In this document: one piece after another, positions 962 to 13,443 of the stretch | How positions within the stretch are numbered: the first letter of the stretch is position 1 | How the letters are laid out: each line of letters starts with the position of its first letter | Origin: Nitrosomonadales bacterium | GTDB taxonomy: Bacteria; Pseudomonadota; Gammaproteobacteria; Burkholderiales; Sulfuricellaceae | Assembly: GCA_003104895.1 (NCBI GenBank) | Contig: PQAG01000116.1 | Coordinates: 1-32,634 of the forward strand | Reading direction: 5' to 3' | DNA length: 32,634 nt | The notes under the pieces: model-generated | Database searches by the model: none | The model's input: the letters and a program-made list of their open reading frames with translations, nothing else | What the model was told of the DNA's origin: nothing | Program-made: the position numbers and the translations under genes

Positions 962-1972
962 ATGTCTACACGTTCCAGGGTATTCATTGGTTCTTCATCA
1001 GAGGGGCTCGAGGTCGCTGAAGCTGTCCGGTTGCAGCTCATAAAGGAACTTGGCGAGAACGCAACTGTAGAGCTATGGACGCGCAAGTTTGAATTCAGTG
1101 AGACCTATATTGAATCCCTTGAAAAAATTGTTGCCGAAGCGGATTTTGCCATACTGGTGTTCACCCCCGATGACGTTACAACCAGCCGAAGCAAAAAGAA
1201 TTTTTCACCCCGCGATAACGTCATATTCGAACTCGGGCTGTGCATGGGCGGCCTTGGACGCGAGCGCTGCTATCTCGTTTACGAAGAGGACTCAACGGGT
1301 AAGGTAAACCTTAAACTGCCTTCGGATCTGCTTGGTGTAAAGTCTGCGACGTTCAAGCGTCAGGGCGGTGAAGACCTGGAGACTGTTCTCGATGCAAAGT
1401 GTGCTTTGATTGCCAGGAAAATCAGCACATTGGGTATCAGACACAAACTTAGCCCGGATGAAGTCGCGGCGCAAGCCCCCATGCTTGCCTTCTGTGAACG
1501 CCTGGCAGGAGCCTGGTGGGAGTATGTGTCAGTTGGCGACAAACGTTGGCTGAGCTTCTTCAGGATCGAACTGGATAATCTCCACAACTCGGTTCAATTC
1601 GAAGATGGACGGCATTTCGAGCCGGATGGCGATTTAACTGCAAGGTGGAAAAGTGTCATTACCCGCTATTTCAGGGAAGAGAATAAAGTCGTGTACCTAT
1701 GGCAGGGCTCATATCCATCGAGTTCTGAAGCAAGTCCTCAGGATCGATTCCATGGATATGGGGAATTCGAGTTCGAGGTGCCTGCGAAATCCAGTGAGCC
1801 AATTAGCCGTGGGCATGGAAAGTTCTGGAACGTTGATGAATCCCATCCTGAAAGGACCCTGGTGAAGGTTGTGCAACTACGCCGGGTTCTTGATAAGGAT
1901 ATTTCCACGATGACCAGTGGGAAACAAAAAGAAATCAAGGGGCTGGTTGCAAGGATATTTCGCGACTGGTAG
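962..1972 (+). CDS. TIR-like nucleotide-binding protein (predicted NAD hydrolase) with an unassigned C-terminal domain
   Basis: 336-aa ORF. N-terminus 'RVFIGSSSEGLEVAEAVRLQL', 'VELWTRKF', 'ADFAILVFTPDD', 'SPRDNVIFELGLCMGGLGRERCYLVYEE' matches the TIR-like family (PF10137 type) found in Cap12/CapTIR proteins; residues ~170-336 look beta-rich and unrelated to TIR. Confidence 0.8.
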   Translation: MSTRSRVFIGSSSEGLEVAEAVRLQLIKELGENATVELWTRKFEFSETYIESLEKIVAEADFAILVFTPDDVTTSRSKKNFSPRDNVIFELGLCMGGLGRERCYLVYEEDSTGKVNLKLPSDLLGVKSATFKRQGGEDLETVLDAKCALIARKISTLGIRHKLSPDEVAAQAPMLAFCERLAGAWWEYVSVGDKRWLSFFRIELDNLHNSVQFEDGRHFEPDGDLTARWKSVITRYFREENKVVYLWQGSYPSSSEASPQDRFHGYGEFEFEVPAKSSEPISRGHGKFWNVDESHPERTLVKVVQLRRVLDKDISTMTSGKQKEIKGLVARIFRDW

Positions 1973-3404: not shown

Positions 3405-4253
3405 TTATTTTTTCCCCAGCATGTTCTGCACGGTCTGCATGATATCCGCCGGCAGCACCACGGTTTTGCTGTTGCCGGAGGCGGCCAGTTCTTTCATGGC
3501 CTGGATGTATTTTTCGCCCAGCAGGTAGTAGGCGGGGAATTCCCGGTCGGGGATGGCTTCGGTGACCTTGCGGATGGCTTCGGCCGCGCCCTGCGCCATG
3601 GTGATCTGGGCTGCTGCATCGCGCTTGGCGGATTCCAGGCGGGCTTCGGCCTCCAGGATGGCGGCCTGCTTGTCGCCTTCGGCCTTGGTGACGGTGGCCT
3701 TTCTTTCCCGCTCCGCCGCAGCCTGACGTTCCATGGAGTCCTGCATCGATGCCGAGGGCTTGATGTCCTGGATTTCCACCGATTTCAGCGTCAGCCCCCA
3801 GTCTGCCACGTCGTCTGAGATGGACTCCTTGAGACGCACCTTGATCTGCTCGCGCGAGGACAGCGCCTGGTCCAGCTCCATTTCGCCGACGATGGAGCGC
3901 AGCGTGGTCTGGATGATATTGACGATGGCCATCTCGAAGCTGGTGACGCCGTACACCGCGTTCTGCGTGTCGGTCACCTTGACGAAGGCGATGGCATTGA
4001 CCACCAGCACCGCGTTGTCCTTGGTGATGACCTCCTGCTGCGGGATGTCGAGGATCAGGTCCTTGGTGGGCACCTTGTAGGCCACGCGGTCGACGTAGGG
4101 GATGATGATGTGCAGGCCGGGCAGCATGGTGATGTGGTACTTGCCGAGGCGTTCCACCACCCATTCCTCGCCCTGCGGCACGATGCGCACGCCCTTGGCC
4201 ACGGTGACGGCGACAAATACGAAAAATACAAATGCCAGAAAAGTGAATTCCAT
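3405..4253 (-). CDS. qmcA: SPFH domain / band 7 (stomatin-like, QmcA-type) protein
   Basis: 282 aa; 'IVPQGEEWVVERLGKYHITMLPGLHIIIPYVDRVAYKV', 'DNAVLVVNAIAFVKVTD', 'SREQIKVRLKESISDDVADWGL'. Confidence 0.9.
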   Translation of the reverse strand: MEFTFLAFVFFVFVAVTVAKGVRIVPQGEEWVVERLGKYHITMLPGLHIIIPYVDRVAYKVPTKDLILDIPQQEVITKDNAVLVVNAIAFVKVTDTQNAVYGVTSFEMAIVNIIQTTLRSIVGEMELDQALSSREQIKVRLKESISDDVADWGLTLKSVEIQDIKPSASMQDSMERQAAAERERKATVTKAEGDKQAAILEAEARLESAKRDAAAQITMAQGAAEAIRKVTEAIPDREFPAYYLLGEKYIQAMKELAASGNSKTVVLPADIMQTVQNMLGKK

Positions 4254-4256
4254 TGC

Positions 4257-4703
4257 CTAATGCTCCTGTTTTTTTGCGACCTTGAGGGTTTGCCCCATGA
4301 CATCGACGATGCGTGCCCGTTCCCCGGCGTGTATGGTTTCATCGGATATGACCGGCCAGGTGTCCGAGCCCAGAATGGGCTTCTGGAAGCGGATATGGCC
4401 TTTGTTTAGTTCCGACACTTCGCGGATGATCATGCCCGTTTCGCCCAGAAAAGCCTCCTTGGCGATGCCGGACTTGGTGCGGTCCGGATTCTTGAAATAG
4501 CGCATCCACAGGACCACCATGGCGCCGGAGGCAATGGCCCATACGGTGAACTGGGCCGCCAGTGAAAGAGGCGCCAGCAGCATGAGCATGCCCACCAGCA
4601 GCGCGCCCAGCCCGAACCATATGATGAAGAAAGAGGGAATGGCCAGCTCCAGCAGAATAAGCAGCAAGCCGCCCGCAATCCAGTGCCACCATGCGATTTC
4701 CAT
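4257..4703 (-). CDS. NfeD family membrane protein
   Basis: 148 aa with hydrophobic N-terminal helices and a C-terminal OB-like domain; immediately upstream of the SPFH gene, as is typical for NfeD/SPFH pairs. Confidence 0.85.
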   Translation of the reverse strand: MEIAWWHWIAGGLLLILLELAIPSFFIIWFGLGALLVGMLMLLAPLSLAAQFTVWAIASGAMVVLWMRYFKNPDRTKSGIAKEAFLGETGMIIREVSELNKGHIRFQKPILGSDTWPVISDETIHAGERARIVDVMGQTLKVAKKQEH

Positions 4704-4742
4704 TACGTCCTCCGCAGTTAAAAGCCGCCCGGGGCGTCTTCG

Positions 4743-4771
4743 CCCACCCTCTCCTTCCGGGAGAGGGTGGG
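4743..4771. repeat. Perfect inverted repeat CCCACCCTCTCC-TTCCG-GGAGAGGGTGGG (REP-like hairpin)
   Basis: 12-bp perfect arms read directly from the sequence, in the divergent nfeD/apaH intergenic region. Confidence 0.8.
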
Positions 4772-9655: not shown

Positions 9656-10504
9656 TTATTCTCCGGTTTCGACCGGCCTGCCCGGATCGGTAATCCACTC
9701 GCTCCAGGAGCCGGGATAAAGCCGCGTGCCCTTGAGGCCGGCATGCTCCATGGCAAGCACGCTATGACAGGCGGTGACGCCGGAGCCGCACATGTGCACC
9801 ACGCGTTCTGGCTCGACCCCGTTCAGCAGGTCGAGATAGGCTTCTTTCAGTTCTTCTGCTGACATGTAGGTGCCGCCCATGTCGAGGTTGTCTTCGAAAG
9901 GGTAATTGATGCTGCCTGGTATATGCCCGGCCACCTTGTCCAGCACTTCGCGCTCACCGCTGAAGCGCTCCTCGGAACGGGCATCGATGAGCAGGCACTT
10001 GTCGCTGCGCAGTGCTTCCTCGATGCAATTCGCGTCCACCCACATGCTGCTGTCAGGGCGCGCCTTGAATTCTGCAGGAGTAATCACCGGCGGCTCGGCC
10101 GTCACCGGGTGCCCATCGCGAATCCAGCGTTGAATGCCGCCGTCGAGCAGGGCGACGGATTTATGACCAAGCCAGCGCAAAACCCACCACATGCGGCCTG
10201 CCATGGCGCCGAAACTGTCGTCGTAAACCACGACCTGCTTGCCGCTGTCCACGCCCCACTGACCCAGTTTCTGGGCCAGCAGCGCCGGGTCTGGCAAGGG
10301 ATGGCGGCCGCTGGTTGCGGTTACTTCGGATGAAAGGTCATCATTGAGGTGGGCATAGCGCGCGCCGGGAATATGCCCTGCCTGGTAGGCGCGGCGGCCT
10401 GATTCAGGGTCGCTCAGGGTGAAGCGGCAATCAAAAATGATCCAGTCGGGATCACTCAAATGTTGCGCCAGTTGCGCTGCACTGACGAGGGTGGAGTATT
10501 TCAT
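9656..10504 (-). CDS. Two-domain sulfurtransferase (rhodanese / 3-mercaptopyruvate sulfurtransferase family)
   Basis: Internal start 'MKYSTLVSAAQLAQHLSDPDWIIFDCRF' at 10504 in ORF 9656..10708; 'VVYDDSFGAMAGRMWWVLRWLGH' and active-site loop 'MCGSGVTACHSVLAMEHAGL'. Confidence 0.92.
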   Translation of the reverse strand: MKYSTLVSAAQLAQHLSDPDWIIFDCRFTLSDPESGRRAYQAGHIPGARYAHLNDDLSSEVTATSGRHPLPDPALLAQKLGQWGVDSGKQVVVYDDSFGAMAGRMWWVLRWLGHKSVALLDGGIQRWIRDGHPVTAEPPVITPAEFKARPDSSMWVDANCIEEALRSDKCLLIDARSEERFSGEREVLDKVAGHIPGSINYPFEDNLDMGGTYMSAEELKEAYLDLLNGVEPERVVHMCGSGVTACHSVLAMEHAGLKGTRLYPGSWSEWITDPGRPVETGE

Positions 10505-10572: not shown

Positions 10573-10905
10573 TTAGTAACCGCCTTTGCCGAAAGGTTTT
10601 GGCAGGCCGGCCACTTTGGCGGACTGACGGTTGGGCTGCATCGGGAACAGCGTGTAGAGATGTTTTTTCCAGTCGGTGCCAGGATGCTCTTCGTCGAAAT
10701 CCTTGCACATGTTGCGGAAGTTGGGGGTCTGGCCGTCTTCCTTGTACTTGTTGCGCATATAGTTGATCACCAGCCAGTGCTCGTCGGTCAGCTTGAGGCC
10801 TTCGGCTTCGGCAATGACCGGTACCACGTCATCGCTGAAATCGGGTTCCAGCAGAAAACCATCGTCGTCAACTTCCAGTTCGGTGCCGTTTACCACATAT
10901 CCCAT
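10573..10905 (-). CDS. DsrC/TusE-family protein lacking both conserved C-terminal cysteines (RspA-like)
   Basis: 110 aa; 'GFLLEPDFSDDVVPVIAEAEGLKLTDEHWLVINYMRNKYKE' and C-terminus 'QSAKVAGLPKPFGKGGY', versus 'QACKIAGLPKPTGCI' in the DsrC encoded at 15779-16111. Confidence 0.92.
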   Translation of the reverse strand: MGYVVNGTELEVDDDGFLLEPDFSDDVVPVIAEAEGLKLTDEHWLVINYMRNKYKEDGQTPNFRNMCKDFDEEHPGTDWKKHLYTLFPMQPNRQSAKVAGLPKPFGKGGY

Positions 10906-10946: not shown

Positions 10947-11501
10947 TCAGGTAAGCGCGTTAATTGATTTGTGAGGAATGAAGATGCCGCAGCCGCTCTT
11001 GCGGTATTTTCCCAGCCCCTGTTGCTGTACCAGGAACGAATGCTCCACTGGCAGCCCATGCAGCATCAGGCTGAAGCCGCTTACGGTGCCATCCTGTGTT
11101 CTGATGGTCTGGCGTTTGCCGCAAATGAAGCGCGAGTCGATTCTCATTTCATCAAGCATGCGAATGATGTCATTGGTAAAATCCAGCTCATCTTCACTGC
11201 CGGTTGCAACGCAATGTGCGAACAGCGGGGTATGACGTGAGAGGGGGCGGGTTTTTCCCGCGCCGATTTCCAGCTTGTTGCCGCCGATATGAATTGTCTG
11301 CCCCGATAGCGTCAGCAGTTCCGGCACGCGCGCAGAGGCAATGCGCACCATCAGTTTTGTGCGCCGGTTGAGAATCAGTTCACCATGTCCGGTATCCGCG
11401 CCATGAATGGCATGCACTCCACCGAGAGGTTCATCTGCAAACCAGGTTAACAGACGAGCCAGTTCGATGAATAGCTCATAGCTGTGATCAACGGGCAGCA
11501 A
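10947..11501 (-). CDS. Orphan Cas6/Cmx6-like (type I-MYXAN family) RAMP protein; 5' end uncertain, homology probably extends to about 11525-11567
   Basis: 184 aa from a TTG at 11501. C-terminal RAMP Gly-rich loop 'QQGLGKYRKSGCGIFIPHKSI', 'SGFSLMLHGLPVEHSFLVQ', 'LTLSGQTIHIGGNKLEIGAG'. In-frame upstream translation '..DVRFDIKGTLLPVDHSYELF' resembles the Cmx6 N-terminus. Confidence 0.75.
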   Translation of the reverse strand: MLPVDHSYELFIELARLLTWFADEPLGGVHAIHGADTGHGELILNRRTKLMVRIASARVPELLTLSGQTIHIGGNKLEIGAGKTRPLSRHTPLFAHCVATGSEDELDFTNDIIRMLDEMRIDSRFICGKRQTIRTQDGTVSGFSLMLHGLPVEHSFLVQQQGLGKYRKSGCGIFIPHKSINALT

Positions 11502-11581
11502 TGTCCCTTTTATATCGAACCGGACGTCGGTTACAAGTGATTCGTCGACGTAGGGTGTTTCCAGAATGTAGCTTAGCCAGC

Positions 11582-11803
11582 CTATTTTGTTGCTCCTTGT
11601 TCCTGTGTTTTGGCCCAGTCCAGCAAGGCATTGCCCCAGTGTACAGCGGTTTCCCTGTCGATCTCGAAAATGGTGAAACGCTTGACCTCGCGAATTCGCA
11701 GGCGCAATGTATTGAAACCTGCTTCGTGTTTTACTTGCTGGAGTTCAATTTCCTGTCTGTAAGGAGTTGACAGGAATTTGTCCAGGCTTATTAACTCGTC
11801 CAT
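11582..11803 (-). CDS. Small hypothetical protein (73 aa)
   Basis: MDELISLDKFLSTPYRQEIELQQVKHEAGFNTLRLRIREVKRFTIFEIDRETAVHWGNALLDWAKTQEQGATK; protein-like composition, directly upstream of and same strand as the Cas6-like gene, divergent from dsrA. Confidence 0.65.
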   Translation of the reverse strand: MDELISLDKFLSTPYRQEIELQQVKHEAGFNTLRLRIREVKRFTIFEIDRETAVHWGNALLDWAKTQEQGATK

Positions 11804-12147
11804 AATTTAGAACTCGTTTCTGCTATTCATATTTAGATTGTAACGAAATATAGGTTCAGCACCCGATACTGCAAGGGGCATAGCCCATATGGGTAGTATA
11901 TTAGTGCTCCCTATGGGGTGGTGGAGTACTCCCTGTTACGCGCCGGGGTAGCCGCGAAGAATGATGGAAATCGCGAATCTAACGGCTGTAATATTCGCCC
12001 TAACTGCTGGAGGTCGAGCGCACTAGTGGTTCCACACCGCAAGCACGTGGACGCAGTAAGGATCACGTAAAAGTTGTAGCTTTATTGAGATGGCTGGTGC
12101 CGGGAAAGCCGGCATAGCTGGACGTTACTTTTTTTTGGAGAACATCA
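11804..12147. promoter_or_regulatory. Divergent intergenic/promoter region between the minus-strand cluster and dsrA, containing short palindromes
   Basis: Gap between divergent genes; perfect palindromes CCCATATGGG (11884-11893) and GGAGTACTCC (11923-11932), plus CCC-TAT-GGG (11909-11917). Confidence 0.55.
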
Positions 12148-13443
12148 ATGGCTAAAAAATTGCACGATACGCCGAATCTGGACCAGCTTGAGAGTGGTCC
12201 ATGGCCCAGTTTTGTGACCGGCCTGAAGCGCGAAGCGCAGAAGCGGGACATCATGGTTGACCTGCTGGGTCAGCTGGAAACATCCTACAAGACCAAGAAA
12301 GGTTACTGGAAGGGTGGTACTGTTGGCGTGTTCGGTTATGGCGGCGGCGTGATCCCGCGTTTCACCGAACTCAAGGACGAGAACGAGAATCCGGTTTTCC
12401 CGGATGCGGCAGAGTTTCACACCCTGCGCATCATGCCGCCACCTGGCATGCATTACGACACCGCTACCCTGCGCAAATTTGCCGACATCTGGGACAAGTA
12501 CGGCTCCGGCCTGATCGGCCTGCACGGCCAGTCCGGCGACATCATGCTGCAGGGCTGCTCCACCGCCAATGTCCAGCCGGCCTGGGAAGAAGTTAACGCC
12601 ATGGGCTTCGATATGGGTGGCGCCGGCCCTGCGCTGCGGACTTCCATGTCCTGCGTAGGCCAGGCTCGCTGTGAAATGTCCTGCTTCGATGAAGCCAAGG
12701 CACTGCGCACCATCATCAATGCAAACGTTGATGATATGCACCGCCCGGCCTTGCCATACAAATTCAAGTTCAAGTTCTCCGGCTGCCCGAACGACTGCGT
12801 TAACTCCATTCAGCGTTCCGACATGGCCACCATCGGCACCTGGCGCGACAACATCCAGGTCAACGAGCAGTATGCGCGTGACTACATGAAGGGCCATGGC
12901 ATGGACAAGCTGGTCAACGACGTGATCAGCAAGTGCCCGACTCGCGCCATTACCCTGCGCAACAAGGCTGATGCCGTTTCTGGCGACAGCGTTTCCACCG
13001 TGGCAGTTGATGACCAGCACGTAATGCAGATTGAAAACCACGATTGCGTACGTTGCATGCACTGCCTGAACGTCATGCCCGGCGCGTTGCTGCCCGGCAA
13101 GGACAAGGGCGTCACCATCCTGGTTGGCGGTAAGAGCGTTCTGAAAATCGGCGCCACCATGGGCACGGTCGTGGTTCCGTTCATGAAGCTGCAGTCCGAT
13201 GAAGACTTCGAGCAGCTTAACGAACTGTCCCGTAACATGATTGACTTCTTTGCTGAAAATGCGCTTGAGCATGAGCGTACCGGCGAGATGATCGAGCGTA
13301 TCGGTCTGGTGAATTTCCTCGAAGGTCTCGATCTGCCTGTTGACGCAAACATGGTCAATCACCCGCGCGCCAACCCCTATGTGCGCATGGACGAGTGGGA
13401 CGAAGAAGTCGAGAAAGTGAACGAGCGCAAGGCTGCTGCCTGA
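12148..13443 (+). CDS. dsrA: Reverse-type dissimilatory sulfite reductase alpha subunit
   Basis: 431 aa; siroheme/4Fe-4S cysteines 'SCVGQARCEMSC', 'FKFSGCPNDCVNSIQRSD', ferredoxin-like 'CVRCMHCLNVMP'. Confidence 0.97.
   Translation: MAKKLHDTPNLDQLESGPWPSFVTGLKREAQKRDIMVDLLGQLETSYKTKKGYWKGGTVGVFGYGGGVIPRFTELKDENENPVFPDAAEFHTLRIMPPPGMHYDTATLRKFADIWDKYGSGLIGLHGQSGDIMLQGCSTANVQPAWEEVNAMGFDMGGAGPALRTSMSCVGQARCEMSCFDEAKALRTIINANVDDMHRPALPYKFKFKFSGCPNDCVNSIQRSDMATIGTWRDNIQVNEQYARDYMKGHGMDKLVNDVISKCPTRAITLRNKADAVSGDSVSTVAVDDQHVMQIENHDCVRCMHCLNVMPGALLPGKDKGVTILVGGKSVLKIGATMGTVVVPFMKLQSDEDFEQLNELSRNMIDFFAENALEHERTGEMIERIGLVNFLEGLDLPVDANMVNHPRANPYVRMDEWDEEVEKVNERKAAA

Follow-up and report, generated by a model that had tools for sequence, protein, structure and literature searches.

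In CRISPR systems, Cas6 is the enzyme that processes crRNAs. The stretch of DNA analysed here (the window, 32,634 nucleotides from a Nitrosomonadales bacterium) raises the question of what such a protein is doing beside the genes of the oxidative Dsr (reverse sulfite reductase) pathway. The initial annotation of the window had suggested that this Cas6 was domesticated and works outside CRISPR. Family, fold, linkage to dsr and lack of linkage to cas1 support that proposal, with the biochemical role unproven, and we are highly confident that a Cas6 has been domesticated into the oxidative Dsr locus. A relative of this protein adjoins the dsr genes in almost every dsr-bearing Gammaproteobacterium, without a link to CRISPR. 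The genes of the window concerned are:

9656 to 10504, minus strand: tandem-domain rhodanese/sulfurtransferase, which follows in the cluster in many relatives
10573 to 10905, minus strand: DsrC paralogue lacking the catalytic cysteines and ending in GKGGY; matches the DsrC family and is the constant partner of cas6
10947 to 11585, minus strand: dsr-linked Cas6 (PF09559/TIGR02807), 212 aa, AUA start; assigned from profile matches, an AlphaFold2 model and start-codon analysis
11582 to 11803, minus strand: small DUF6967 protein (PF22295) of 73 aa, encoded by the leading gene of the divergent cluster; E 1.1e-27, conserved in the order-level loci
12148 to 13443, plus strand: dsrA, which opens the dsrABEFHC... 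operon and runs divergently from the cas6 cluster; TIGR02064, 504.6 bits
15779 to 16111, plus strand: canonical dsrC, ending in PTGCI, in contrast to the KGGY paralogue

The minus-strand cluster with a DsrC homologue and a rhodanese, divergent from dsrA, had been described correctly in the initial annotation. That description left out the DUF6967 gene between cas6 and dsrA, the unusual codon at which cas6 starts, and the fact that the DsrC paralogue ends in KGGY.

The open reading frame is a member of the Cas6 family, far above chance. Pfam PF09559 matches it over its full length with 202.9 bits (cut-off 26.7, E 6e-60), the NCBIfam model TIGR02807 gives 150.9 bits and passes its cut-off of 98.85, and PADLOC labels it Cas6-MYXAN, all of which bears out the likeness to type I-MYXAN Cas6/Cmx6 that had been suspected. 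The glycine-rich RAMP loop that had been noted, GLGKYRKSGCGIFIPHK, is present on the minus strand. An AlphaFold2 model (18 homologues) reached a pLDDT of 89.9, and Foldseek returned with it the type I-B CAST Cas6 first (8fcu, TM 0.84) and archaeal and Thermus Cas6 proteins next. A tandem ferredoxin-like RAMP fold with its glycine-rich loop is seen in the model and in these matches, and the Cas6 similarity holds by both profile and fold. When the sequence was searched against solved structures, the type I-B CAST Cas6 8fcj was its sole significant relative; a search for a phage origin returned no match in phages.

This closest solved structure (PDB 8fcj, 8fcu; 26% identity) is one of the subunits of a DNA-bound, transposon-recruiting Cascade, whereas the dsr-linked protein (dsr-Cas6) has no Cascade or transposition genes nearby. 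The canonical Cas6 of Pyrococcus furiosus (3i4h, 3pkm), an archaeal CRISPR enzyme, has the same RAMP fold (TM ~0.65) at about 11% identity. Type I-MYXAN Cas6/Cmx6 proteins of cyanobacterial plasmids (L111, L112 and L114 to L116) have in common with dsr-Cas6 the full-length match to TIGR02807/PF09559, the tandem ferredoxin-like fold, the glycine-rich loop, R81, R195 and usually a DH motif, at 24-28% identity. Unlike dsr-Cas6, which has dsr and no cas genes as neighbours, the plasmid genes adjoin cas3 and cas8a1/cmx8, with arrays close to two of them, and their products lack E133, G156 and H205-K206, which are features of dsr-Cas6.

The gene had been placed at 10947-11567. Its minus-strand frame stands; the end at 11567 does not, as it falls inside the frame, whose extent is most likely 10947-11585. 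No ATG, GTG or TTG occurs from the upstream in-frame stop (codon -54) to codon 19, and the start region contains:

11583 to 11585, minus strand: AUA start codon, followed by GGC TGG and sharing bases with the upstream gene's TAG stop (ATAG)
11593 to 11596, minus strand: Shine-Dalgarno GGAG, 7 nt before the AUA

The same arrangement of GGAG, 6-7 nt, AT(A/C) and GGC TGG is found in 37 distinct loci of the window's clade (24 ATA and 13 ATC), and Thiobacillus orthologues have ATG or GTG where this clade has AUA or AUC. Downstream or leaderless starts at GTG, TTG or CTG were considered for the window and rejected, as no ATG/GTG/TTG is reached until the first beta strand has begun, and the Thiobacillus ATG/GTG starts line up with the SD-ATH-GGC-TGG block. 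Judged from these alignments, translation of cas6 in this one clade most likely begins at AUA or AUC, and the likely effect is low, possibly feedback-controlled translation. The textbook case of such non-canonical starts is the AUU of infC. A conserved AUA/AUC start would be an unusual example of selection for a non-canonical start, and one that gene callers would miss.

Residues were compared between 145 dsr-Cas6 sequences and CRISPR members (n=7 for the His of the DH motif). The RNA-facing residues R81 (145/145), R195 (132/145) and the glycine-rich loop, whose glycines are found in 143-145 of the 145, are kept as in CRISPR Cas6, which suggests that RNA binding has been retained. Only the dsr branch has E133 (145/145), G156 (144/145), H205 (135/145) and K206 (142/145), positions at which CRISPR members have other residues. 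The candidate catalytic residue, H34 of the DH motif, is found in 105 of the dsr members and in 6/7 CRISPR members, and is replaced by N, Y, S or D in 40/145; the catalytic residues of the subfamily have not been established. RNA cleavage is likely, albeit unproven, in most members, and where H34 is replaced catalysis may have been lost.

These replacements leave room for a non-catalytic or purely structural descendant of Cas6, one that binds RNA or the KGGY-ending DsrC paralogue (DsrC-KGGY) as a regulator and does not cut. Such a protein, which we regard as unlikely without dismissing it, would fit the loss of the putative catalytic His from about 28% of members while the basic residues and glycine-rich loop stay nearly invariant, and an AUA/AUC start would suit autoregulation by a binding protein. 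The His is nevertheless retained in 72% of members, and, with N at the same position in the type I-B CAST Cas6 as well, a missing His is no proof of lost cleavage.

Our preferred reading remains a CRISPR-derived Cas6 that serves the Dsr pathway together with DsrC-KGGY. This paralogue adjoins cas6 in 51 of 56 loci, and every cas6-adjacent copy examined ends in KGGY, which replaces the KQACKIAGLPKPTGCI/V end of canonical DsrC; both sulfur-carrier cysteines are missing. The partner is a clear member of the DsrC/TusE family (TIGR03342, PF04358), from which it differs in its KGGY end and in the lack of both conserved C-terminal cysteines. The penultimate, sulfur-binding cysteine, which was called strictly conserved in all DsrC proteins in a paper on Allochromatium vinosum (PMC3397948), is missing from all the cas6-adjacent copies examined. 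Within the order, KGGY-type DsrC is present in 46/46 Cas6-positive genomes versus 1/5 of those with dsrA and no Cas6. The tail itself is almost invariant in two very different versions, PFGKGGY in Burkholderiales and ESRRKGGY elsewhere.

The divergent cluster of Burkholderiales runs DUF6967, cas6, DsrC paralogue and often rhodanese. Other orders of the class usually have a TauD-like oxygenase, a protein of about 70 aa, often one of 230 aa, cas6 and the DsrC paralogue; the 230 aa protein was judged 'TPR-like' by eye, and Pfam gives no match to it. DsrEFH and DsrC are homologues of TusBCD and TusE, which deliver sulfur to tRNA (PMC3397948), and with a DsrC/TusE paralogue as the constant partner of cas6 and a TauD-like oxygenase in many loci, the two proteins could act on tRNA, Cas6 as a thiolation-linked nuclease, and couple the Dsr relay to Tus 2-thiolation. 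We hold this to be improbable: it is an analogy only, the paralogue is without the sulfur-carrying cysteine, and no RNA-target data exist for it.

In the surveys of order and class, a comparison that the initial annotation had called for, Cas6 goes with dsr and not with cas1. Among 250 genomes of the order, PF09559 was found in 46, always as a single copy, and dsrA in 51; all 46 Cas6-positive genomes carry dsrA (Fisher p 5e-45), whereas Cas1 is independent of Cas6 (12/46 Cas6-positive versus 48/204 Cas6-negative genomes, p 0.7). Five genomes have dsrA and no Cas6: two, G122 and G145, lose the site to a contig end, and from three, G083, G132 and G217, cas6 is truly missing. G217, which has no dsr-linked cas6, carries an isolated KGGY-type DsrC distant from dsr (L276, 7925-8431).

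The class sample of 274 genomes contained Cas6 in 91 and dsrA in 92, with both in 86, Cas6 alone in 5 and dsrA alone in 6 (p 5e-57). Where the two genes share a contig (n=63), 62 pairs are divergent neighbours within 4.6 kb; the sole exception is G357 (L285, L109), a complete genome of 1.45 Mb with cas6 about 40 kb from dsrA. The five Cas6-only genomes were ruled out as CRISPR users, since in all of them cas6 lies on a truncated contig bearing part of the dsr-linked module: TauD, DsrC-KGGY or the complete module in four, and a fragment of dsrA in the fifth. Most discordant genomes can be put down to assembly.

Scanning GTDB genome contigs confirmed at least 581 dsr-cas6 loci. The best 80 of these at least 581 belong to Sulfuricella, Sulfurimicrobium, Sulfuriferula, Thiobacillus and their kin, and among them dsrA is divergent from cas6 in 78/78 with enough sequence. 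None of the 38 dsrA-positive genomes outside Gammaproteobacteria (of 160 genomes drawn at phylum level) has PF09559, and the association is therefore a trait of Gammaproteobacteria; these 38, together with the three dsrA-positive genomes of the order that lack Cas6, mean that Cas6 is not essential to Dsr chemistry. Cas6 distances correlate with DsrA distances (Mantel test, r 0.66, 0/2000), which along with the co-occurrence of DsrC-KGGY argues for what appears to be a long, mainly vertical partnership.

The window, as had been reported, contains no CRISPR repeats and no sign of another cas gene: there are no array-like repeats, PADLOC gave no cas match for ten other window proteins (not every window ORF), and the window scan found no cas3, cas8a1/cmx8, cas7/devR or cas1 beside cas6. 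The locus thus qualifies as type I-MYXAN CRISPR-Cas neither by adjacent cas genes nor by an array. An ordinary orphan Cas6 might still process, in trans, the crRNAs of an array elsewhere in the genome, and in keeping with this the protein passes the TIGR02807 equivalog cut-off and a clear Cas1 was found in the dozen Cas6-positive genomes counted above. Yet Cas1 is independent of Cas6, the gene follows dsrA across the whole class, and DevR/Cas7, the expected partner, was found in 0/47 Cas6-positive genomes; Cas3 scored above the cut-off in 10/47, the window genome (G000) not among them. A MYXAN locus elsewhere in the genome without its own cas6, named at the outset as a finding that would refute domestication, was sought by profile searches of G000, in which neither Cas1 nor DevR/Cas7 was found and no Cas3 passed the cut-off. 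An array scan found none in 1.82 Mb of dsr-cas6 neighbourhoods, nor in G357, a complete genome of 1.448 Mb; the same script detects arrays in two cyanobacterial MYXAN loci used as controls. Genome-wide CRISPR detection, as had been advised, was accordingly negative in a complete member of the class; the array scan did not cover the whole of G000. Processing in trans is strongly disfavoured and very improbable, and a complete dsr-cas6 genome without an array (G357) refutes it. Genomes often contain orphan cas genes (PMC5294841), but a hitch-hiking or decaying, functionless CRISPR remnant is already refuted by a frame that is open, conserved and syntenic across the class at ~39% mean identity, with invariant residues, and that is kept in a complete genome of ~1.4 Mb (G357).

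The explanation that we favour, with a probability as a whole of roughly 0.6, is a CRISPR-derived Cas6 that has become a dedicated accessory of oxidative Dsr, is RNA-binding and probably RNA-processing, and works with DsrC-KGGY. An ancestor of the dsr-bearing Gammaproteobacteria would have captured the gene from a CRISPR-like source (a type I-B CAST or I-MYXAN Cas6), and it would have been kept since as an accessory of the pathway. Its Cas6-fold product, with RNA binding and probably RNA processing as its predicted activities, would be made together with the cysteine-less DsrC-KGGY, divergently from dsrA, and, depending on the order, with DUF6967 (Burkholderiales) or with a TauD-like oxygenase, a small protein and often the TPR-like protein (other orders). 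We infer that dsr-Cas6 may act on cellular RNA with DsrC-KGGY as a protein partner reporting sulfur or Dsr status, and that the pair would adjust the stability or translation of RNA, dsr mRNA or other, during sulfur oxidation; the weak start codon would fit an RNase or regulator needed at a low level. That dsr-Cas6 binds or processes RNA at all is fairly probable, with neither substrate nor nuclease activity shown, and the specific mechanism linking it to DsrC-KGGY is a hypothesis without interaction data. We put forward only tentatively a bolder version, in which a single, full domestication of a CRISPR-derived ribonuclease took place at or close to the root of the dsr-bearing Gammaproteobacteria, and the enzyme and DsrC-KGGY make up a two-protein device, held at a low level by the AUA/AUC start, through which RNA is processed or silenced in response to the status of the sulfur relay. 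If true, this device would be a post-transcriptional control layer of sulfur lithotrophy.

No conserved RNA target or substrate of dsr-Cas6 was found among the candidates considered, namely the dsrA leader, Rfam families (no match in window 9-13 kb) and the following element:

11882 to 11896, no strand assigned: conserved dyad between the divergent genes, consensus CTACCC-N4-GGGTAG, probable DNA operator

The pattern [CT]CC-N3-5-GGGTAG occurs in 28/40 order loci versus 0.3 in shuffles, and a dyad-like match lies upstream of dsrA in 38/40, including two loci without Cas6 (L069, L070). Its presence in these two rules out the dyad as a Cas6 hairpin and makes it probably a DNA operator, putatively that of an unidentified dsr regulator. 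The dsrA leader is unsupported as a substrate: its strong hairpins are confined to the genus, alifold gave no structure for two groups and a modest one for two others, and the mean folding z was -0.69 versus -0.13 in the control. At genus level this leader (window ~12000-12147) has two covarying hairpins, the second followed by an eight-T run just before the Shine-Dalgarno, and by these features it looks like an attenuator.

We found no prior description of Cas6 with dsr or DsrC in the open-access literature (subscription journals were not covered), and a study of Dsr synteny mentions neither cas6 nor CRISPR (PMC10504309). The association ties a whole Cas6 subfamily, in hundreds of sulfur-oxidizing species, to an energy-metabolism operon. 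An RNA-level component of Dsr-based sulfur oxidation becomes testable, and the pairing of Cas6 with an unexplained cysteine-less DsrC supplies a concrete partner hypothesis. TIGR02807 is the model by which NCBI names proteins 'CRISPR-associated'; dsr-Cas6 scores above it, and the name therefore misleads.

Elsewhere in the window, positions 962-1972 (plus strand) encode a CAP12/Pycsar-type effector with a TIR domain (PF10137), a candidate for anti-phage defence. On the Gloeobacter morelensis plasmid pGMOR1 (L113), a Cas6/Cmx6 gene at 3974-4765 has no cas genes within 4 kb and stands beside PAPS-reductase-family and cupin genes, possibly a second non-CRISPR use of the Cas6/Cmx6 family.
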